The translations under genes and the position numbers were made by a program. From the NCBI RefSeq assembly GCF_014189535.1, contig NZ_CP050308.1, forward strand, positions 2,455,501 through 2,519,500: 64,000 bases of DNA. Reading direction: 5' to 3'. This stretch comes from Rhizobium lusitanum. GTDB lineage: Bacteria; Pseudomonadota; Alphaproteobacteria; Rhizobiales; Rhizobiaceae. Of the stretch, positions 21,459-44,430 are shown one piece after another (the stretch's first letter is position 1; every line of letters starts with the position of its first letter). The notes under the pieces are model-generated. The model saw nothing but the letters and a program-made list of their open reading frames with translations. It did no database searches and was not told the DNA's origin.

Positions 21459-22223
21459 GTGAAAGAGTCCGCTTCTGACACAATATTGCGCGAAAAAGTC
21501 GATTATAGACTCCCAATAACACCATCTGAAACCAAACAAATTATTCCAGTTTCAAAGCAAAAATCTGCAAATAATACTTATATATTCGCCGACGAGGCGG
21601 GGTGCTTTACATTTAATAGAAATCAAAATGTGAGCAAGTACTTTATAATTTGCACCGTTACAATGAACAAACTTGACGTTGGCCATGCGCTTCAGGAGCT
21701 TCGCCATCAATTGCTCTGGGAAAAATTCGATATCGGAGATTTTTTCCATGCTACTGTGGATTCTCAATCTGTCAGAGATCGAGTTTTCCAGGAAATTCTG
21801 AGACACGATTTCCAAGTTCAAGCTACTATTTGCGAAAAGGCAAAAGCTCAGCCGCATATTCGTCAAGACAAGTCCAGATTTTATAAGTATCCTTGGTTTT
21901 ATCAATTTAAACATGGCGTTGCGAAACACGTCGACAGAAATACGCGGGTGTTAGTTACCGCTGCATCGATCGGTACGAAAAAAGAAAGAGCAACATTCAC
22001 AACCGCTCTTAGTGACGTGATGTCGCAAACGATCCGCAACGTGCAATGGGCTGTCGATTTCCGACCATCTAATTGTGATCCTTGCCTGCAGTTGGCTGAC
22101 TACTGCGCATGGGCAATTCAGAGGAAATGGGAAAGGGACGATAATAGGTCGTACGCCCTTATTAAGGACCGTATTTCTTACGAATACGAACTCTGGAAAA
22201 ACGGCAAAGAACTATACTACTGA
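21459..22223 (+). CDS. DUF3800 domain-containing protein, atypical composition
   Basis: The 254-residue product shows the DUF3800 layout: an N-terminal acidic motif FADEAG (Asp45, Glu46; usually FxDESG), a central HATVDS, and the C-terminal CDPCLQLADYCAWAIQRKWE (about 206-225) with Asp214. The acidic residues at both ends suggest an RNase H-like nuclease fold, but activity is not established for the family as far as I know. GTG 21459 is preceded by TAGGAGA (21447-21453). Base composition and codons are far AT-richer than all neighbours, and the gap on both sides is AT-rich as well, pointing to recent acquisition. No partner gene, integrase or repeat is visible. Confidence 0.8.
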   Translation: MKESASDTILREKVDYRLPITPSETKQIIPVSKQKSANNTYIFADEAGCFTFNRNQNVSKYFIICTVTMNKLDVGHALQELRHQLLWEKFDIGDFFHATVDSQSVRDRVFQEILRHDFQVQATICEKAKAQPHIRQDKSRFYKYPWFYQFKHGVAKHVDRNTRVLVTAASIGTKKERATFTTALSDVMSQTIRNVQWAVDFRPSNCDPCLQLADYCAWAIQRKWERDDNRSYALIKDRISYEYELWKNGKELYY

Positions 22224-32406: not shown

Positions 32407-33024
32407 TTAAATTCGACGACGAGGGCGAGTTAACTCTAAGATCACGGAATCGCTCTCGACAACACTGTTGTGTTTTACCAGATCGAACTCCCAACGACCA
32501 CGGGCTTTCTGGACCTCACGTTCGTAATCCCTGCCTTTATGCAGCAGCAAACGTACATTTTCATTACGTTCGACCCATGGCGCTGCATAGTCCAGCAACG
32601 TATCCAGCTCGGCAAGCGCCCGCGCAGAGATGACATCGCAATCAACAATGATCTTCGGCGCCTCCTCGATGCGCACCGCATGAACGGCGCCGCGGGCCTC
32701 GCATTCCCGGAGACAAACCCTTAGAAAGGCGGCCTTTTTCTGGTTGCTTTCCACCAGATCGACATGCCCGTCCTTCTGCTCCGCCAGAAGAATTGCCGTG
32801 ATGATGCCTGGAAAACCGCCGCCACTTCCCAGATCGGCCCAGCGCGCCGGCTTCTGATGAAGCTGGAAAATCTGGGCGCTATCGGCAATATGCCGACGCC
32901 AAAGATCATCGATGGTCGAAGGCGCGACCAGATTGATGGTCTTCGCCCACTTCTGAAAGAGCTCGGCAAAGTGCTGCAGCCGCCCCTGTGTTTCACGTGA
33001 AACACGCAAACCGTTTAATTCCAT
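32407..33024 (-). CDS. rsmG: 16S rRNA (guanine-N7) methyltransferase RsmG (GidB)
   Basis: The 205-residue AdoMet-dependent enzyme methylates G527 of 16S rRNA. Its loss is known to give low-level streptomycin resistance in other bacteria. [21 protein letters not shown] (about residues 67-87) is the AdoMet motif, with [12 protein letters not shown] after it. The start [15 protein letters not shown] is noteworthy because the codons for VSRET form a perfect parS site. It follows mnmG by 33 bp and adjoins parA, the usual gid-par arrangement. Confidence 0.96.
32989..33004. promoter_or_regulatory. Perfect parS site inside the rsmG 5' coding sequence
   Basis: TGTTTCACGTGAAACA matches the consensus at 16 of 16 positions and extends to an 18-bp palindrome (32988-33005). 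It is the best parS copy in the window, about 7 kb from the presumed origin and next to parAB. Confidence 0.93.
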
Positions 33025-35050: not shown

Positions 35051-36367
35051 CTTTCCGATGCAAAATTCGGAGAAGATCACGTCGAGAAGATCCTCGACAT
35101 CGACCCTTCCGGTAATCCGGCCGAGACTATGCCCGGCCTGGCGAAGGTATTCCGCACGAATATCCAATCCGGCAGAAGCGGCGCTAACCGCCTCCGTCAG
35201 CGCCTCCAGGCTCTCAGCCAATAGAGTCCGGTGCCTCAAACGGCTCGGCAGGGCCAACGACAGAGAAGTAGAGCGTTCCTGGAGATCTCCAACCAATAGC
35301 TGATGCAATTCCGCGAGACCGGAGCCAGTGCTCGAGGAAATACAGAGATCGTATTCATAGTCCCTGGCCCGATGAATATCCGCTTTGGTGCCGACGCGAA
35401 AAATCCGGCCGCCAAAGCCGGGAAAATCGGTCTGCGCCTCCGTGCCAATCTCCGCGAGAGAAAGAACAACATCGGCTTCCGCCGCTGTCCTCAATGCGCG
35501 CTTTATCCCCTCGCGCTCAATGACTTCCTCGGTTTCGCGCAATCCGGCCGTATCGTAGAGCCGAACCGCGTAACCCTCCATATTGAGATCAACATGCAGG
35601 ACGTCGCGCGTCGTGCCGGCAATGTCGGTGACGATCGCCACCTCGCGACGCGCCAGCGCATTCATCAGGCTGGATTTTCCGGCATTGGGCGCACCAGCGA
35701 TGACGACCTTCAAACCGTCGCGAACAATCTCGCCAAAGCCGGCGCCGGCAAGATGCGCTGACAGTTCCGCCCGCAGCTTCGCCATATCATCCCAGACCAG
35801 ATCGGATACCGAGCCGGGCACGTCGTCTTCATCGGCAAAATCCAGCTCAGCTTCAATCAGGGCACGGGCGCGAGTCAGGCGATCAGCCCACCCTTCATAG
35901 AGTTTCGAAAGGCCACCAGCAGCATGCTCTACAGCCAAGCGCCGCTGCATTTCTGTCTCGGCGGCGATGAGATCGGCAAGGCCCTCAACCTCGACAAGAT
36001 CCATCTTGCCGTTTTCCAGGGCGCGACGAGAGAATTCACCGTGCTCCGCCAGGCGGCAGCCATCGAAGTCGGTAAGTTCATCCAAAAGCGCGGCAACAAC
36101 GGCCTTGCCACCGTGAACCTGGATTTCCGCGCAGTCTTCACCCGTAAACGAGGCTGGCGCGGGGAAGATCAGCACCAGACCTTGGTCGATCGTTAAACCG
36201 TTACGAGTCCGAATCGTTTTCAATGCCGCCTGTCGAGGCTTCGGCAATGAGCCAGCCAGTGCATGTACCGCGGCAAGTGCCTCAGGACCGCTAATCCGCA
36301 CCACCGCTACCCCAGCTGGAAGAGCACCGCTTGAAAGCGCAAAGATCGTATCACCGATTGTGTTCAT
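35048..36367 (-). CDS. mnmE: tRNA modification GTPase MnmE (TrmE)
   Basis: The 439-residue protein is the GTPase partner of MnmG. An N-terminal folate-binding domain ([22 protein letters not shown]) is followed by a helical domain that encloses the G domain: [14 protein letters not shown] (G1, near residue 227), DIAGTTRD (G2) and [10 protein letters not shown] (G3). The C-terminus is the conserved CIGK, whose Cys is needed for modification. It starts the mnmE-mnmG-rsmG-parA-parB run. The upstream region contains a cluster of GANTC sites. Confidence 0.97.
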
Positions 36368-36384
36368 CTAATTGATCCGCATCC

Positions 36385-36418
36385 GAATCGATTCCCGGCA
36401 CTCTGCGGCAAAGGAGTC
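36385..36418. promoter_or_regulatory. Cluster of three GANTC sites upstream of mnmE
   Basis: GAATC (36385-36389), GATTC (36390-36394) and GAGTC (36414-36418) lie 18-51 bp upstream of the mnmE ATG. GANTC is methylated by CcrM in alphaproteobacteria and can tune GcrA-dependent promoters. The cluster is seen in the sequence, and regulation by it is inferred. Confidence 0.4.
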
Positions 36419-36583
36419 GATCTCTTACTATCTTCCAAACTAATCAGTCTTTCGTCCGATTACCTCAAAGCGAAGTGTTTCACGATTTGCAGCACGGAGC
36501 GAATGAGACCAAAGATCTCGCTCCGCAAAATCAGTAACACCCGGTCAATCGAAACATATGGTACCTCCAGGACAATAAACGAA

Positions 36584-36607
36584 ATCGGGCCGCAAACGCG
36601 ACCCGAT
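36584..36607 (-). terminator. Probable terminator of rho
   Basis: ATCGGG (36584-36589) pairs with CCCGAT (36602-36607), with CGC/GCG inside after one mismatch. On the minus strand TTTCGTTTATTG follows. It lies 53 bp beyond the rho stop. Confidence 0.6.
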
Positions 36608-36660
36608 CCATATTGTCATAGCGTCCGTCACCCATGAGCGACGGTCAATCCGGTTAAGGA

Positions 36661-37926
36661 TCAGGTGTTCATCGAGTCGAAGAAATCCGGATTGTTCTTC
36701 GTCTGCTTCAACTTGTCGATCAGGAATTCGATCCCGTCGGTGGTACCCATTGGTGCGAGGATACGGCGCAGGACGAAGATCTTCTGCAGATCCTGACGCG
36801 GCACCAGCAGGTCTTCCTTACGCGTACCGGACTTGAGGATATCCATGGCCGGGAAGATACGCTTGTCGGCGACCTTACGGTCGAGCACGATTTCCGAGTT
36901 ACCGGTGCCCTTGAATTCTTCGAAGATCACTTCGTCCATCCGGCTGCCGGTATCGATCAGCGCGGTGGCGATGATCGTCAGCGAACCGCCTTCTTCGATA
37001 TTACGCGCAGCACCGAAGAAGCGCTTCGGGCGCTGCAGGGCGTTGGCGTCGACACCGCCCGTCAGGACCTTGCCAGACGAGGGAACGACGGTGTTGTAGG
37101 CACGGCCTAGGCGCGTGATCGAATCGAGCAGGATGACAACGTCGCGTCCATGTTCGACAAGGCGCTTGGCCTTCTCGATAACCATTTCGGCAACCTGAAC
37201 GTGGCGCACAGCCGGTTCGTCGAAGGTCGAGGAGACGACTTCGCCGCGCACCGAGCGCTGCATGTCGGTCACTTCTTCCGGACGTTCGTCGATCAGCAGA
37301 ACGATCAGATAGCAATCCGGATGATTGGCCGTGATCGAGTGGGCGATGTTCTGCAGCAGCACGGTCTTACCGGTGCGCGGCGGCGCTACGATCAATCCGC
37401 GTTGGCCCTTGCCGAGCGGCGCTACGAGATCAATGACGCGGGACGAAAGATCCTTGGTGGTGGGAACGTCGAGCTCCATGCGGAAACGCTCGTTCGGATA
37501 GAGCGGCGTCAGATTGTCGAAATGGACCTTGTGGCGAATTTTTTCCGGGTCGTCGAAATTGATGGTGTTGACCTTCAGCAGCGCGAAATAGCGCTCGCCT
37601 TCCTTCGGTCCACGGATCGGTCCCTCGACGGTATCACCGGTCTTCAGCGAGAAGCGGCGGATCTGCGACGGCGAGATGTAAATATCGTCCGGACCTGGGA
37701 GATAATTAGCATTCGCGGAGCGCAGGAAACCGAAGCCGTCCTGCAAAACCTCAACGACGCCTTCACCGATAATTTCAACATCCTGGCTGGCGAGTTCCTT
37801 CAGGATCGCAAACATCAGTTCCTGTTTGCGCATCGTGCTGGCGTTTTCGACCTCGAGCGATTCAGCAAATGCCAGAAGATCGGTCGGGGATTTGTTCTTA
37901 AGTTCTTGAAGCTTCATTTCAGCCAT
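36661..37926 (-). CDS. rho: Transcription termination factor Rho
   Basis: The 421-residue hexameric RNA helicase ends transcription at Rho-dependent sites. The N-terminal helix bundle ([20 protein letters not shown]) precedes the RNA-binding cold-shock-like domain ([20 protein letters not shown], then [19 protein letters not shown]). The ATPase domain has the Walker [13 protein letters not shown] near residue 175, [11 protein letters not shown], and the Q/R-loop region. The start at ATG 37926 is supported by family length, and MKLQ three codons later is an alternative. It is 198 bp after hemJ. The upstream frame to 38025 is not family-like. Confidence 0.97.
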
Positions 37927-38124
37927 GAAGGGAATTACTCTATTTTTAGAAGGGGAAAGGCAATGTTGGTCGTATTCAGAGCCGCGATGGGGGAGCTCGC
38001 GGGCGATAGAACTGATACATGCCACGAAGAAGAGATGGCGGGAAAATAGCGATTCAGTTGGCGCCCCGCAAGGGGGGCCGGCGAAATGAGGAAAATTTTA
38101 CTTTAACGCGCAGTTCCGCCGATT

Positions 38125-38679
38125 TTACGCGAAGGGCTTTACCACCGCCAGGATGACGATCACGATCATTAACAGGGTCGGCCCTTCGTTGATAATCCGC
38201 CAATGCCGGGCTGAATAGCGGTTGTCATCGCGGGCAAAGGCCCGCACCGCGCGGCTGAGGAACATATGCACGCCCGTCAGCAGCACGACAAGCCCGATCT
38301 TGGCATGTAGCCATCCGCCATGGAAACCATAGACCGACCAGGCGAGATAGAGCCCGAAAATCCAGGTCAGCATCATCGCCGGCGTCATGATCCCCTTCAG
38401 GAGCCGGCGCTCCATCACCTTGAAATTCTCGGATTGCTGCGAACCTGGCTCGGCATCCGTGTGATAGACGAACAGCCTTGGCAGATAGAGCAGACCCGCC
38501 ATCCACGAGATCACCGCGATGATATGCAGCGCCTTGACCCAGAGGTAGAGATCGTCCGGATGCCAGGCGAACAGGCCGATCGCCAGCGCCACGAACAGCA
38601 GGATCATGAAATAGGCACGGCGGCTGGCGCGGGCGCCCGCAGCCGCATCCGTCTGTTTTTCCGTCGGTTGCTCGCTCAT
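38125..38679 (-). CDS. hemJ: Protoporphyrinogen oxidase HemJ
   Basis: The 184-residue membrane protein oxidises protoporphyrinogen IX to protoporphyrin IX in bacteria lacking HemG/HemY. Four hydrophobic segments are visible (about 25-40, 48-66, 98-118 and 125-145), plus one at the C-terminus. The conserved heme-binding histidine lies in WVKALHIIAVISWMAGLLYL, and RLFVYH and LLTGVHMFLSR are other signatures. It is 4 bp from the hemE stop, so the two heme genes form one unit. The ATG at 38679 fits the family better than the upstream one at 38727. Confidence 0.93.
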   Translation of the reverse strand: MSEQPTEKQTDAAAGARASRRAYFMILLFVALAIGLFAWHPDDLYLWVKALHIIAVISWMAGLLYLPRLFVYHTDAEPGSQQSENFKVMERRLLKGIMTPAMMLTWIFGLYLAWSVYGFHGGWLHAKIGLVVLLTGVHMFLSRAVRAFARDDNRYSARHWRIINEGPTLLMIVIVILAVVKPFA

Positions 38680-38683
38680 GGCC

Positions 38684-39727
38684 TCAGCCCTTCCATCCAC
38701 GAACGCGTTCCACCAGCGCGGTGACATTGGCTGGATCGGCCTGCGGCGTGATGCCGTGGCCCAGATTGAAGATCAGCGGGCCGTGGCCCAGTTGCTGCAG
38801 GATATCGTCAATCCCGTCCTCCAGCGGCTTGCCGCCGGCAACAACACGCATCGGATCGAGATTTCCCTGCACCGGTCCCTCCCGCTGCAACTCCTTGGCA
38901 AAGGCGAGCGGCACAGACCAATCGAGTCCGATCGCATCGGCGCCCGTCTTCTGGCGATATGTCTTCAGCTGATACCCCGCTCCCTTGGCGAATGCGATGA
39001 TCCGCGCGTGCGGTCGTTGCGCCTTCACCGAAGCGATGATCCTTGCCACCGGCTTGATGGCGAAAGCCTCGAATTCCTGCTCGCCAAGCACACCCGCCCA
39101 GGAATCGAAAATCTGCACAGCATCGGCGCCGGCATCAATCTGCGCCACGAGATAGGCGGCTGATATCTCCGCAAGCAGCATCAGCAAATGCTCGAACGCT
39201 TTTGGATATCGGTAGGCGAAAAGCCTGGCAGGGGCCTGGTCCGGCGTGCCGTGTCCGGCGATCATGTAGGTCGCAACCGTCCAGGGTGCTCCGCAGAAAC
39301 CGAGAAGCGTCGTCTCATCCGGCAGTTCCCCCCGCAGCCGCCGCACCGTTTCCATGACCGGAGCGAGATGCTGAAGCACGCCATCCGCTTTCAACGCGAA
39401 AATGCCCGCCTCGTCGATCGGATCCATTTCTGGGCCATGTCCCTCGGTATAAAGGACATTGCGGTTCAGTGCGTCGGGGATCACCAGGATATCCGAAAAC
39501 ATGATCGCTGCATCAAAGCCATAACGCCGGATCGGCTGCATCGTCACTTCGACCGCATGCTCCGGGCTGTAGCAGAGATCGAGAAAGCTTCCAGCCTTTG
39601 CTCTCGTCTGCCGATATTCCGGAAGATAGCGTCCCGCCTGGCGCATAAGCCAGATGGGGGGAGGGGTCAGCGTTTCCCCGCTGAGTACCCTTAAGATCTT
39701 CCGGCGCGCACTGTTCACAGTCATCAT
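38684..39727 (-). CDS. hemE: Uroporphyrinogen decarboxylase HemE
   Basis: The 347-residue cytoplasmic enzyme removes four carboxyl groups from uroporphyrinogen [18 protein letters not shown] near the N-terminus is the signature with the substrate-binding Arg. [11 protein letters not shown] carries the catalytic Asp, and [14 protein letters not shown] is the second signature. MMTVNSARR starts at 39727, and an ATG at 39724 is equally possible. Its promoter must lie in the origin region upstream, as for hemE of Caulobacter crescentus. It forms an operon with hemJ. Confidence 0.97.
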
Positions 39728-40118
39728 CCCATATAAAAACAAAGATATATCTTAAGTTTCTATTTCTTAGAGTCTGTGACTATCAAGGATTAAAATTCAT
39801 CCACGGCTGATCCAATTTGTCGCGCCTCCATCCCGGATTTCGCAAAAAGTTCAGGCTCTCTCCGGGATATGTGGAAAAGATAAGCGTTAGATCAATAATT
39901 CTAAGTGCTTGGCTCAGATTCCCTATCGATCCCATCTGGGGATAAACTGGGGAGACGTGTTGCTCAAAATAGCTTATCCACATTACCCACAAGCGCCGCT
40001 GAACGCCTTCCCGAAAAACCGAAATGTGGAAAAGTCGGAGGTTTTCCACTTGCCCCCGACCGGGCGGTTCCCGTACCTCTCTTTTCTCCCATGATATCAA
40101 CAGGTGATGGAAAGTAGC
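39728..40118. other. oriC: Putative chromosomal replication origin (oriC)
   Basis: This 391-bp gap between divergent hemE and the PEP-synthase regulator gene has no credible gene. It contains the perfect DnaA box TTATCCACA (39974-39982), an abutting TTACCCACA (39983-39991), and TTTTCCACA on the minus strand at 39870-39878 and 40025-40033. TTTTCCACT (40042-40050) and TTATCCCCA (minus strand, 39937-39945) are weaker. TGGGGA, like Caulobacter W-boxes, is at 39937-39942 and 39948-39953. An AT-rich stretch at about 39728-39800 could unwind. Origins next to hemE are known in Caulobacter crescentus and Sinorhizobium meliloti. The gene-strand switch here agrees. Confidence 0.85.
39974..39991 (+). promoter_or_regulatory. 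Tandem DnaA boxes in oriC
   Basis: TTATCCACA (39974-39982), identical to the DnaA consensus, is directly followed by TTACCCACA (39983-39991, one mismatch) in the same orientation. A head-to-tail pair of this kind is expected to load DnaA cooperatively. Confidence 0.8.
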
Positions 40119-40940
40119 GTGGAAAACCGGACAAGCTTCTTTCATCTTCATCTGATTTCTGACTCAACCGGCGAGACTCTGATCTCCGCCGGACGTGCTG
40201 CATCCGTGCAATTCCATGCCAGCCAGCCGATTGAGCATGTCTACCCACTGATTCGGAATCGCAAGCAGCTGCTGCCGGTTCTGGAAGCGATCGATCATAG
40301 CCCTGGCATTGTCCTCTATACGATCGTCGATCGCGAGCTTGCCGATTTCATCGACGAGCGTTGCCGGGAGATGGGTGTACCCTGCGTCAATGTGCTTGAA
40401 CCGGTCATGAACGTCTTCCAGACCTATCTCGGTACGGCGTCGCGTCGCCGGGTTGGCGCCCAGCATGTCATGAACGCCGATTATTTCGCGCGCATCGAAG
40501 CCCTGAACTTCACCATGGACCACGATGATGGTCAGATGCAGGATGATTATAATGATGCCGACGTCGTCATCATCGGCATTAGCCGGACGTCGAAGACGCC
40601 GACGAGCATTTACCTGGCGAACCGGGGCATCAAGACCGCCAATATCCCGATCATCGCTGGCGTGCCCTTACCCGAAAGCCTGATCCTGGCAACCAGGCCG
40701 TTGATCGTCGGGCTCGTAGCCACGACCGATCGGATATCCCAGGTGCGCGAAAACCGCATTCTCGGCGCGACCACCGGCTTCGACCGTGGTGGCTACACCG
40801 ATCGCGCCACCATCTCCGAAGAGCTGAAATATGCCCGGTCGCTCTGCGCGCGGCATAATTGGCCGATCATCGATGTCACCCGCCGCTCGATCGAGGAGAC
40901 GGCAGCCGCGATTGTTGCCCTGCGCCCGAAGCTGCGCTAA
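40119..40940 (+). CDS. ppsR: Pyruvate, water dikinase (PEP synthase) regulatory protein PpsR
   Basis: The DUF299-family protein is a bifunctional ADP-dependent kinase and phosphorylase that switches PEP synthase or pyruvate phosphate dikinase off and on. [14 protein letters not shown] near the start, [10 protein letters not shown], and the P-loop-like [21 protein letters not shown] (near residue 150) are diagnostic, as is [15 protein letters not shown] at the end. GTG 40119 ([11 protein letters not shown]) after GGAAAG gives 273 residues, the length I expect for rhizobial members. An ATG at 40107 would add four. It is the first gene on the right side of the origin and is followed by maf. Confidence 0.9.
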
Positions 40941-40978
40941 GCGCTGCATAGCATTATATTTTCAAGGTTCGTCTGATC

Positions 40979-41578
40979 ATGACCACGCCGCTCATCCTTG
41001 CCTCTTCCAGTTCGTTCCGACGGATGTTGATGGAAAATGCCGGCCTGCATTTCCAGGCGCTTGCGGCTGATATCGACGAGCGCGCGATCGAAGCGCCTTT
41101 GGAGCGGGATGGCGCCGGACCGGATGCTGTGGCGCTGGTGCTGGCCAAGGCCAAGGCCAAAGAGGTGAGCGACCGTTTTCCGGGATCACTCGTCATCGGC
41201 TCGGATCAGACCATGTCGCTCGGCAGCCAAGTCTTCCACAAGCCGAAGACAATGGCGGAGGCGGAGAACCATCTGCGGAGCTTGTCGGGCAAGACCCACC
41301 GCCTGAACAGCGCCATCGCCTTGGCACGCAACGGCGATATCATCTGGGAGCATGTGTCCCACGCCGAACTGACGATGCGCGATCTCTCCGCTGAGTTCGT
41401 CCATCGCCACCTGACCCGTGTCGGCGGCAAGGCCTTGTCGAGCGTCGGCGCCTATCAGCTCGAGGGTGAGGGGATCCAGCTCTTCTCGAAAATCGACGGC
41501 GATTATTTCACCATTATCGGGTTGCCGATGTTGCCGCTCCTGCAAAAACTTCGCGAATTGGGGGCGATCGATGGGTGA
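40979..41578 (+). CDS. maf: Maf-like nucleotide pyrophosphatase
   Basis: The 199-residue protein belongs to the Maf/HAM1 superfamily of nucleoside triphosphate pyrophosphatases, which remove non-canonical or modified nucleotides. The N-terminal [18 protein letters not shown], the E/D-rich ERAIEAPL, the [17 protein letters not shown] segment and the C-terminal [28 protein letters not shown] are all family motifs. It is 38 bp after ppsR and overlaps aroE by 8 bp. Which Maf subclass (YhdE or YceF type) it is cannot be settled by eye. Confidence 0.93.
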
Positions 41579-42431
41579 TTCACGTGAAACACACGGCCAG
41601 AATGCCTTCGTCACGGGCTATCCTGTCAAGCATTCGCGCTCCCCGTTGATCCATGGTTATTGGCTGCGCTCGCTCGAGCTTGCGGGCAGCTATCGTGCGC
41701 ATGAAGTCTCCCCGGATGGCTTTCCGGCCTTCATCGCGGCTTTGAAAGATGGCTCAAGCGGCTACATCGGCGGCAATGTGACGATCCCGCACAAGGAGAT
41801 CGCCTTCAAGCTGGCGGATCGGCCGGACGAACTGTCCGAGGAGCTTGGCGCGTCGAACACGCTCTGGATCGAGGATGGGCTGCTGCACGCGACCAACACC
41901 GACGGCCGCGGCTTCACCGCCAACCTCGACGAGCGTCATTCCGGCTGGGACCACACCGACCGGGTAGTGATCCTCGGTGCCGGCGGCGCCAGCCGTGCCG
42001 TCATCCAGGCGGTGCGGGACCGTGGTGTCGGAGAGATTCATGTCGTCAACCGCACCGTCGAGCGGGCACAAGAACTGTCGGATCGCTTTGGCGCGCATGT
42101 CCATGCCCATCCTATGGGCGCGCTGGGCGAGGTGATGCGAGGCGCCGGTCTCTTCATCAATACGACGTCGCTCGGCATGGAAAACGAAGTGGCGCCCACA
42201 ATCGATTTTTCGCCGCTCGCTGAAAACGCTGTTGTCACCGACATTGTCTATGTGCCGTTGAAAACCCCATTGCTGGCGCAGGCCGAGGAACAGGGCCTTG
42301 CCATTGTCGATGGCCTCGGCATGCTGCTGCATCAGGCGGTGCCGGGTTTTGAAAAATGGTTCGGCAAGCGTCCCTTGGTCGATGAGGTGCTGCGAGCTCT
42401 GATTATCGCCGATATGGATAAGCACCGATGA
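41571..42431 (+). CDS. aroE: Shikimate dehydrogenase AroE
   Basis: The 286-residue NADPH enzyme reduces 3-dehydroshikimate in aromatic amino-acid synthesis. The substrate site [11 protein letters not shown], the catalytic lysine in [17 protein letters not shown], the nucleotide motif [13 protein letters not shown], and NTTSLGM are all present. The start [18 protein letters not shown] overlaps the end of maf. The codons for DSRET contain a parS-like site, just as the start of rsmG does. A 4-bp overlap with coaE shows tight coupling. Confidence 0.95.
41576..41591. promoter_or_regulatory. parS-like site (15/16) inside aroE / end of maf
   Basis: TGATTCACGTGAAACA matches TGTTTCACGTGAAACA at 15 of 16 positions. 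It spans the last bases of maf and codons 2-7 of aroE, on the other side of the presumed origin from parAB (about 1.5 kb away). Confidence 0.75.
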
Positions 42432-43051
42432 TACGCGTTGGCCTCACCGGTTCGATCGGCATGGGAAAGTCGACCTCGGGCAAACTGTTCGCCGAGGCCG
42501 GCATTCCCGTCAACGATGCCGATGCGGTGGTGCATGATCTTTATAGCGATAGCGGCGAAGCCGTTCCGCTGATCGAGGCCGCTTTTCCGGGAACGACGAA
42601 AAATGGGACCGTCGACCGGCAGGAGCTTGGCCGTCAATTGGCCGTCGATCCCTCCGGCTTCAAGCGCCTGGAGGCGATCGTCCATCCGTTGGTGCGGCAG
42701 CGTGAACGGATATTTCTGGATCATCAACGCTCCGCCGGTGCCGATATCGTCGTGCTGGATATTCCGCTGTTGTTCGAGACCGGTGCGGATCAAAGGGTCG
42801 AGAAGATCGTCGTCGTGAGCTGCGATCCAAAGATTCAGAGAGAAAGAGTGCTTGCCCGGCCCGGCATGACGGAGGAAAAATTCAACATGATTCTCTCCCG
42901 TCAGACGCCGGATGCGGAGAAACGGGCTCGGGCCGACTATATTATCGATACCAGTCACAGCATCGACGTGACGCGAGAGCAGATAAGAGACATCATAGCG
43001 GACCTCCGGCGCCAAGCGGTGGACGGTGGACCCACAGGCGGAGAGCCCTGA
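42428..43051 (+). CDS. coaE: Dephospho-CoA kinase CoaE
   Basis: The 207-residue P-loop kinase phosphorylates dephospho-CoA, the last step of coenzyme A synthesis. GSIGMGKS at 8-15 is the Walker A motif. [15 protein letters not shown] and [14 protein letters not shown] are family landmarks. The tail after about residue 195 is short and variable. It overlaps aroE by 4 bp and is followed 1 bp later by dnaQ. Confidence 0.95.
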
Positions 43052-43052
43052 T

Positions 43053-43769
43053 ATGCGCGAGATCATTTTCGATACGGAAACCACCGGGCTCGACAACAAG
43101 GCCGACCGGATCATCGAAATCGGCGGCATTGAGCTCTTCAATCACTTTCCGACCGGCAAGACCCTGCATCTCTATATCAATCCCGGCGACCGCAAGGTTC
43201 ATCCGGACGCGCTGGCCGTGCACGGCATCACCGACGAGTCCCTGAAGGACAAGCCGCCCTTTGCCGACGTTGCCGACGAGATACTGGCCTTTTTCGAAGG
43301 AGCCAAGTGGATCGCCCACAATGCCACCTTCGACATGGGCTTCGTCAATGCCGAGTTCGCCCGGCTTGGCCGTCCGCCGATCCTACCCGACATGGTGACC
43401 GACACTTTGGCCATGGCGCGGCGCAAGCATCCGATGGGGCCGAACTCGCTGGATGCGCTCTGCCGGCGCTACGGCATCGACAATTCCCACCGCACCCGAC
43501 ATGGCGCGCTTCTCGACTCCGAATTGCTGGCAGACGTCTATATCGAAATGATCGGCGGCCGACAGACGGCGCTTGGGCTTGGCAGCAGCAACGGTTCGTC
43601 CGCGCGGTCCCGCCAGAATGATGACGCGGAAGAGGTCGTCGCGGATATTCTGGCGCGGCCTCAGCCCTTGCCTGGCAGGGTGAGCGAGACTGAGGAGGCC
43701 GCTCACACCGCCCTCGTTGCCAAGCTGGGCGAAAAGGGCATCTGGGCGAAATATCGCACATCGAACTGA
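43053..43769 (+). CDS. dnaQ: DNA polymerase III subunit epsilon DnaQ
   Basis: The 238-residue protein is the 3'-5' proofreading exonuclease. Exo I is FDTETTG (Asp7, Glu9), Exo II is HNATFDMGFVNAE, and Exo III is HGALLDSELLA, with the histidine and aspartate of the DEDDh type. The C-terminal tail (about 180-238) links to the polymerase alpha subunit. The ATG at 43053 follows GGAGAG and abuts the coaE stop. The order maf-aroE-coaE-dnaQ-secB near the origin is common in alphaproteobacteria. The last plus-strand gene of this operon, it converges on the LysE-type gene with only 28 bp between stops. Confidence 0.96.
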   Translation: MREIIFDTETTGLDNKADRIIEIGGIELFNHFPTGKTLHLYINPGDRKVHPDALAVHGITDESLKDKPPFADVADEILAFFEGAKWIAHNATFDMGFVNAEFARLGRPPILPDMVTDTLAMARRKHPMGPNSLDALCRRYGIDNSHRTRHGALLDSELLADVYIEMIGGRQTALGLGSSNGSSARSRQNDDAEEVVADILARPQPLPGRVSETEEAAHTALVAKLGEKGIWAKYRTSN

Positions 43770-43797
43770 GGGATATCTCAAGCGCTCGAAGGCTGAG

Positions 43798-44430
43798 CTA
43801 GGTCCTGGTTCCCAGAGCAAGCCGGCAGGCCAGCCCCGCAAACACGGTCGCGAGAAGATATTGCGGCAGTTTCGGAAATCGGGAAAATCCGGCAAGGCGG
43901 GCGCGAATATGGCTGCCAACCAGGATCACCGAGCCATTCACCAAGAAACCGATCCCGTTCAATATCGTGGCGAGCAGAAGCATTTGCCCGATCATCGAGC
44001 CGCCCTCGGTGCTGACGAATTGAGGGAACAGGGCAAGGACGAACAGCACCATTTTCGGGTTCAGAAGATTGGTCGCAAGGCCTTCTGCGAAAATCCGCCT
44101 GTTTGAAAGCCGCTTCAGCGCTGAAGTTGGAGAAAAGCTCGATCCTTGCGAGCGGATCGTTTTGTAGGCCAGATAGAGAAGATAGACACAGCCGGCCCAA
44201 CGCACGATCTCATAGGCGATCGGCACGGTCATGAAGAGCTGCGAGAGGCTGAGCGCGGCAGCAAGAGCATGACAGTAGGTGCCAAGCGCAATGCCTGCAT
44301 AGGTCAGAAAACCCGCGGCCCGTCCCTGGCTGACGCTGCGCGAAGCGATCAGCAGCATATCGGGGCCGGGTGTGGCGGTGAGAACCACGGCGGCGGCGGC
44401 AAAAAGTGCAATTGTGGAGAGATCCGGCAT
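43798..44430 (-). CDS. LysE/RhtB-family exporter
   Basis: The 210-residue membrane protein has six hydrophobic segments and the family N-terminus TPGPDMLLIASRSVSQGRAAG (about 20-40). NLLNPKMVLFVLALFPQFV lies near the middle. Members export amino acids such as lysine, homoserine and threonine or related compounds, and specificity is not visible. It is the last gene on the minus strand before dnaQ, separated from secB by a terminator, so it is probably transcribed alone. Confidence 0.9.
   Translation of the reverse strand: MPDLSTIALFAAAAVVLTATPGPDMLLIASRSVSQGRAAGFLTYAGIALGTYCHALAAALSLSQLFMTVPIAYEIVRWAGCVYLLYLAYKTIRSQGSSFSPTSALKRLSNRRIFAEGLATNLLNPKMVLFVLALFPQFVSTEGGSMIGQMLLLATILNGIGFLVNGSVILVGSHIRARLAGFSRFPKLPQYLLATVFAGLACRLALGTRT

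Follow-up and report, generated by a model that had tools for sequence, protein, structure and literature searches.

The probable replication origin of the Rhizobium lusitanum chromosome and a conserved T-rich tract beside hemE

The chromosomal replication origin of Sinorhizobium meliloti is linked to hemE. In Caulobacter crescentus and Rickettsia prowazekii, the origin is reported to lie between hemE and a gene of the COG1806/DUF299 type, in AT-rich DNA containing several DnaA boxes (PMC1914354). A preliminary description of the DNA studied here had proposed that the gap between hemE and ppsR in Rhizobium lusitanum is such an origin, and the comparison is borne out, since the gap shares the layout seen in Caulobacter and Rickettsia. 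In common with the hemE-linked origins of Alphaproteobacteria it has the flanking genes hemE and ppsR (COG1806), an AT-rich region and a conserved cluster of DnaA boxes, and a GC-skew minimum is found here as well. We put the probability that this gap is the oriC of the 3.91-Mb chromosome at about 0.95.

The window, that is, the whole stretch of 64,000 nucleotides that was analysed, covers C5:2,455,501-2,519,500. Contig C5 has 3,912,407 bases and belongs to a 6.94-Mb assembly with five contigs; its dnaA gene and the genes of the neighbourhood suggest that it is the main chromosome. Pfam matches confirm both flanks of the gap (positions here and below are those of the window unless a contig is named):

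38684..39727, minus strand: hemE, uroporphyrinogen decarboxylase (PF01208, E 3.7e-110)
39728..40118, no strand: intergenic gap between hemE and ppsR, very probably the chromosomal oriC (box cluster, instability, nearby GC-skew minimum, conservation in relatives)
40119..40940, plus strand: ppsR, kinase/pyrophosphorylase of the PEP-synthase-regulator type (PF03618, E 1.1e-88; start set by conservation)

This ppsR is distinct from the photosynthesis repressor that bears the same name. On the minus strand the neighbours are parB, parA, rsmG, mnmG, mnmE, rho, hemJ and hemE, after which the gap follows; beyond it the plus strand carries ppsR, maf, aroE, coaE and dnaQ. The names mnmE, rho, hemJ, hemE, ppsR and maf have a Pfam basis, and the remaining ones were given by eye from the translations. 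The closest named relative found was Rhizobium rhizogenes NBRC 13257, with 99% identity in the PpsR protein. A GTG or ATG at 40104/40107 is absent from the consensus of the named relatives. The GTG at 40119 is kept as the ppsR start in all 80 named Rhizobium relatives, and the borders 39728-40118 therefore hold.

The gene order around the gap is widely kept. In a first set of relatives, hemE was present in 27 of 30 loci around ppsR, and the other three loci start 400-530 bases before ppsR, at the start of a contig. Among the 80 named Rhizobium loci, hemE adjoins the gap in 79; the 80th, from R. johnstonii 3841 (L146), is a complete record whose first base lies 464 bases ahead of ppsR. Similarly, the 4.16-Mb contig of another genome (G018) begins 419 bases before ppsR. 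Across the family, 90 loci from 87 genomes were fetched, and both genes were found in 83 of them, 350-486 nt apart. Across the class both were found in 29 of 30 loci, the 30 being the best-scoring of 90 genomes with ppsR among 142. One small genome (G226, L323), in which hemE was not found, carries two nearby ppsR-like pieces.

The polarity of the chromosome also changes here, and parS-like sites accumulate around the same place:

41,018 (C5:2,496,518), no strand: cumulative GC-skew minimum of the contiguous 404 kb around the window
41576..41591, plus strand: parS-like site with one mismatch, 1.5 kb beyond the gap
32989..33004, plus strand: parS-like site with no mismatch
34993, 35035 and 30656: further parS-like sites with two, one and two mismatches, respectively

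The skew minimum falls inside the start of maf, 0.9 kb from the gap, and the window taken alone gives the identical base. GC skew was further sampled in twenty 20-kb stretches placed every 200 kb, plus the window in two parts. A minimum elsewhere had been named beforehand as the refuting result; in the 1.224 of 3.912 Mb of non-redundant sequence read (1.264 Mb including the window and small overlaps) the minimum did not lie elsewhere. Between 0.6 and 2.4 Mb the sampled skew is negative, and from 2.6 Mb onwards, past the contig end and up to 0.4 Mb, it is positive, with exceptions at 1.80 Mb (+0.022) and, near zero, at 3.2 Mb (-0.002) and 3.4 Mb (+0.002). The positive value at 1.80 Mb (C5:1,800,001-1,820,000, L010) is local, the adjoining stretches being mostly negative, and perhaps reflects an inversion or an island. 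A second change of sign lies roughly opposite the gap, near 0.40-0.43 Mb: the cumulative skew has its maximum at 430,876 (scan of 200-660 kb), and the octamer GGGNAGGG, which we take to be an FtsK-orienting type of motif, lies mostly on the plus strand before about 400 kb and mostly on the minus strand after it. The two replication arms would thus be unequal, 2.06 and 1.85 Mb. The best match to an E. coli-type dif site had 9 mismatches in 28 positions, and no dif site was called.

The window has six parS-like sites with at most three mismatches, where 0.08 would be expected. The sixth, at 1345-1360 (one mismatch), lies about 38 kb from the origin, away from the others. Taken together, the skew minimum, the second flip, the parS cluster, the kept gene order and the conserved boxes described below support the proposed chromosomal origin and place the gap among the known hemE-linked origins of Alphaproteobacteria.

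These data also bear on the idea that the gap is just a two-way promoter at which DnaA acts as a transcription factor for hemE and ppsR, the origin being elsewhere, for example at dnaA. Indeed, dnaA is 437 kb away, at C5:2,932,380, and a conserved tract treated below lies at a promoter-like distance before hemE throughout the family. However, the skew changes sign at the gap and its minimum in the surrounding 404 kb adjoins it, whereas the samples flanking dnaA (2.8 and 3.0 Mb) are both positive. Moreover, the gap has no sigma-70-like match on the hemE strand and one on the other strand, with 0.6 expected in all, and the R. johnstonii 3841 record and the G018 contig both begin just before ppsR. 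We therefore consider a promoter without an origin very improbable. On another contig of the assembly (C4, 552198-552470 and 654545-654814), two frames of about 250 aa match just the end of the DnaA profile (positions 345-435).

Within the gap, a perfect DnaA box abutting a one-mismatch box had been described, together with three further boxes, TTTTCCACA on the minus strand (twice) and TTTTCCACT on the plus strand at 40042; all are present. The box positions, with the number of the 80 named Rhizobium loci that keep each (with at most one mismatch unless stated otherwise), are:

39870..39878, minus strand: DnaA box TTTTCCACA, 24 loci
39937..39945, minus strand: DnaA box TTATCCCCA, containing the first TGGGGA, 64 loci
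39974..39982, plus strand: perfect DnaA box TTATCCACA, 39 loci
39983..39991, plus strand: DnaA box TTACCCACA, 11 loci, or 56 with two mismatches
40025..40033, minus strand: DnaA box TTTTCCACA, all 80 loci, the sole position so kept
40094..40102, plus strand: weak box ATATCAACA, 79 loci with up to two mismatches

The box at 40042 is kept with at most two mismatches in just 28 of the 80. The window contains 10 boxes that differ from TTATCCACA by no more than one base, and 5 of them fall within the 391-bp gap, compared with 0.06 expected from an even spread; the box at 39974 is the sole perfect one of the window. In 60 further 20-kb stretches of C5, each scanned separately, the maximum was two such boxes per 391 bp. 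By the same count, a stretch of E. coli K-12 (L288) gives four boxes, three of them starting within the annotated oriC. The gaps of 55 loci from other genera of the family have 2.53 boxes each, versus 0.07 after shuffling. Genome-wide, the perfect TTATCCACA is not enriched (14 occurrences versus 32 for the reversed pattern).

Two TGGGGA motifs, at 39937 and 39948, had been likened to the W-boxes of Caulobacter. Both motifs are there. The first is a one-mismatch reverse DnaA box that aligns with TGTGGATAA-type boxes of relatives; the second is weak and poorly kept, reading TGTGGA in some relatives (by eye) and giving a box with at most two mismatches in 3 of 80. Conservation across the 80 relatives lends the W-box reading no support of its own. 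W-boxes themselves are described as weak DnaA sites (PMC4468827), so the question is partly one of label. The Caulobacter origin is reported to have two moderate G-boxes in addition to its weak W-boxes (PMC4468827), whereas the R. lusitanum gap has one perfect and four one-mismatch boxes. The exact CtrA site TTAA-N7-TTAA occurs neither in the gap nor in the window, and with one base relaxed it occurs twice in the window and never in the gap. For IHF, the gap has no exact consensus; by eye, TATCAAGGATTAA at 39781 matches with one mismatch.

A regulatory RNA, CcnA, is reported to be transcribed from the Caulobacter origin (PMC8959179), and the gap could be imagined to encode a similar one. Its predicted folds are slightly in excess (z -1.93 and -1.35), but 3 and 10 of 100 shuffles fold equally well, and the region 36000-44000 has no Rfam match up to E = 1. 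With the Rfam search empty and the shuffles so close, this proposal is left without support, and we regard it as improbable.

The gap has 45.5% G+C, versus 55-63% in 2-kb steps of the window. The AT-rich tract noticed earlier beside hemE was recovered: 60-mers beginning at 39731-39741 reach 75% A+T, second in the window after 77% at 21527. The features of this side of the gap are:

39731..39790, no strand: probable DNA-unwinding element, the least stable 60-mer of the window (first of 63,940 in a scan of nearest-neighbour energies)
39758..39777, plus strand: conserved T-rich tract TTNTNNTTCTNNGANTCKGT, better conserved in the family alignment than any other 20-mer of the gap
39770..39774, no strand: GANTC (CcrM-type) site within the tract, unchanged in 81 of the 84 rows of the family alignment
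39775..39783, minus strand: degenerate R1-like DnaA box TGTGACTAT, followed by CAAGGATTA; three mismatches to TGTGGATAA

The tract thus lies inside the least stable 60-mer, and the sequence reads TTC TAT TTC TTA GAGTC TGTGACTAT CAAGGATTA. When the window was aligned with the 80 Rhizobium loci, conservation reached 97% or more in every column from 39756 to 39774; the gap has no longer run of this kind, and the next-longest is 39785-39793. In the 84-row family alignment, in which one genome (G116) was entered twice (L174, L260), the tract has a mean column identity of 0.866, the highest of any 20-mer of the gap (median 0.488), and box 40025 has 0.874 over its 9 columns. A T stands at every third base (39758, 39761, 39764 and 39767) in 83, 83, 84 and 84 of the 84 rows. 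Of 199 family genomes, 41 contain a 29-base pattern covering 39766-39794 (three mismatches allowed), each of them a single time, and none contains its reversed control. Of the 83 family gaps, 27 had been fetched because they match this pattern. For the 55 loci of other genera, ppsR served for the choice, with a single locus for each genus, and genomes with a 29-base match were left aside. A relaxed 20-mer pattern derived from the 84-row alignment is present with at most two mismatches in 54 of these 55, versus 0 of 55 at nucleotides 151-300 and 0 of 1,100 shuffles. The sole miss (L245) has five mismatches and looks shifted by one base.

GANTC sites are concentrated in the same place. The first 100 nt of the 55 gaps contain 33 per kb, against 5.1 in the rest and 3.4 in shuffles, about a tenfold excess, and 52 of the 55 gaps have at least two sites there. 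The 27 pattern-picked gaps have 18.5 per kb, with two or more in 16, and the beginning of the R. lusitanum gap has one. Loss of CcrM was considered as the cause of the three aligned rows lacking the site and found no support: a RAMA domain match, which we take to be CcrM, was found in 21 of 21 genomes tried, including those three.

The 20-mer has one exact match in 192 non-family genomes of the order (L324), with no hemE or ppsR in the surrounding 2.2 kb. At order-level loci, the best match has two mismatches in one locus (L047) and 4-6 in the other 12, while random stretches of the window give 4-8. No description of the tract was found in the literature searched, which did not reach as far as the S. 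meliloti oriC paper, and we do not claim that it is unpublished. The tract is the sole part of this origin that a specialist might not expect.

Genomes in which the flanking genes have been lost or moved may provide some clues regarding what the tract belongs to. One genus (g39) has no PF03618 match in its three sampled genomes, and hemE and the tract remain in all three. In one of these (G074, L258 2232-2760) DnaA-type boxes are kept and maf comes next; the tract by hemE is seen also in G176 and G245. Among 18 hemE loci of genomes without ppsR (20 of 46 such family genomes were tried), the tract precedes hemE with at most three mismatches in 15; a further one has four mismatches (L276), and two are without the tract (L275, L280). 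In another genus (g104) hemE has moved. There the tract stays on the ppsR side in both genomes, with no mismatch to the relaxed pattern (L242, L322). The DNA upstream of the moved hemE matches it with 7 and 8 mismatches at best (L274, L277), and the relaxed pattern, sought anywhere in these two loci, with 5 and 4. This suggests that the tract belongs to the origin, or to the promoter of an operon serving hemJ, more than to hemE.

The question is therefore whether the origin is real and the tract at 39758-39777 is nevertheless a promoter, of hemE or of a hemE-hemJ-rho operon, and not an unwinding element. Transcription of hemE is said to matter for replication at the Caulobacter origin (PMC8959179). 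The tract keeps a constant place before hemE, about 25-80 nt upstream across the family, and it holds a GANTC site. Such sites occur in promoters controlled by CcrM and GcrA. In L242, where hemE is gone, a hemJ-like gene (identified by eye) follows, so an operon promoter could remain there; however, this next gene is 120 nt from the tract. Against a promoter, too, the origin of g104 keeps the tract and the moved hemE lacks it, and the tract coincides with the least stable 60-mer and with the place where part of the class has TNG repeats and a box. The minus strand has no sigma-70-like match, although rhizobial promoters may differ from that consensus. We regard the promoter function as possible, if somewhat unlikely, and an unwinding function as probable.

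The latter function can be compared with the system of basal unwinding by DnaA-trios (PMC8287927). Both have a tract of three-base spacing located 5' of a TGTGGATAA-oriented box on the same strand, but the middle bases of the R. lusitanum tract are T, A, T and T, and not A as in the trios (PMC8287927). Under the published rule, which asks for at least three NAN no further than 16 nt from a DnaA box of up to two mismatches (PMC8287927), no canonical trio is found in the gap on either strand; across the family the rule holds in 11 of 83 gaps versus 8.15 after shuffling, and across the class in 5 of 29 versus 1.1. The tract is therefore not filed under the DnaA-trio system. The unwinding step is proposed from the position and instability of the tract and from its similar layout; the strand, the three-base spacing and the box that follows also agree with an unwinding tract, probably a divergent one.

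In many other Alphaproteobacteria, TNG triplets are repeated at the same place and lead up to a TGTGGATAA-type box, after which GGGAT often stands; where R. lusitanum has the degenerate box 39775-39783, many of them carry a better one. Runs of these triplets directly before such a box beside hemE are seen in L291-L294, L299, L304, L307 and L314-L316. At least three TNG before a box (at most three mismatches) were found in 12 of 29 class gaps versus 0.32 after shuffling, and in 0 of 83 family gaps versus 0.74; the rule was made after seeing the sequences, and the class loci are the best-scoring 30 of 90 genomes. Perhaps these runs are DnaA-trios with a free middle base. TNG runs reach a length of just one or two in the 11 order-level gaps from outside the family, which suggests that the loss of the triplets may predate the family.

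In the left half of the E. coli oriC, AT-rich 13-mers with GATC sites are followed by box R1. The E. coli sequence reads TTATTAG...CCTGTGGATAACAAGGATCC in the same orientation, with GATC sites between (NC_000913.3). The two origins thus share a T-rich strand upstream of a TGTGGATAA-oriented box, then CAAGGAT, and sites of adenine methylation; in R. lusitanum, GANTC takes the place of GATC and the R1-like box is degenerate. By analogy, the CcrM sites at the opening point might be a counterpart of the Dam sites. In this hypothesis, Rhizobiaceae, or perhaps already the order, would have replaced a trinucleotide DnaA-binding tract by a family-fixed T-rich sequence with a CcrM-type (GASTC) spacer to the R1-like box, usually with more GANTC beside it, and methylation would tune melting, convergently with the Dam sites in the E. 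coli 13-mers. We hold this to be doubtful. Upon CcrM depletion in Agrobacterium tumefaciens, ori2 was reported to be delayed, but two ori1 foci were seen in nearly the same proportion of cells as without depletion (PMC11514494), and the latter speaks against a strong effect of methylation. Caulobacter with excess CcrM is reported to gain chromosome copies, which speaks for some effect, and GANTC motifs were noted in Caulobacter origins, so there is precedent for methylation sites at the origin of an alphaproteobacterium (PMC3973325).

From the arrangement of these features, we infer an order of events at the origin. DnaA would nucleate on the boxes at 39870-40033, that at 40025 being the invariant one. 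The oligomer would then extend towards hemE onto the degenerate box at 39775-39783 and capture one strand of the T-rich stretch 39758-39774, after which the AT-rich DNA at 39731-39790 would open for helicase loading. Forks would depart both ways and meet near 0.40-0.43 Mb, and ParB bound to the nearby parS-like sites may segregate the new origins.

With the start of replication fixed for the chromosome of R. lusitanum and its relatives, replichores, copy-number gradients and synteny can be read correctly. In addition, the tract offers a short and nearly invariant target for asking where and how the rhizobial DnaA opens the helix, and whether adenine methylation matters in this step.
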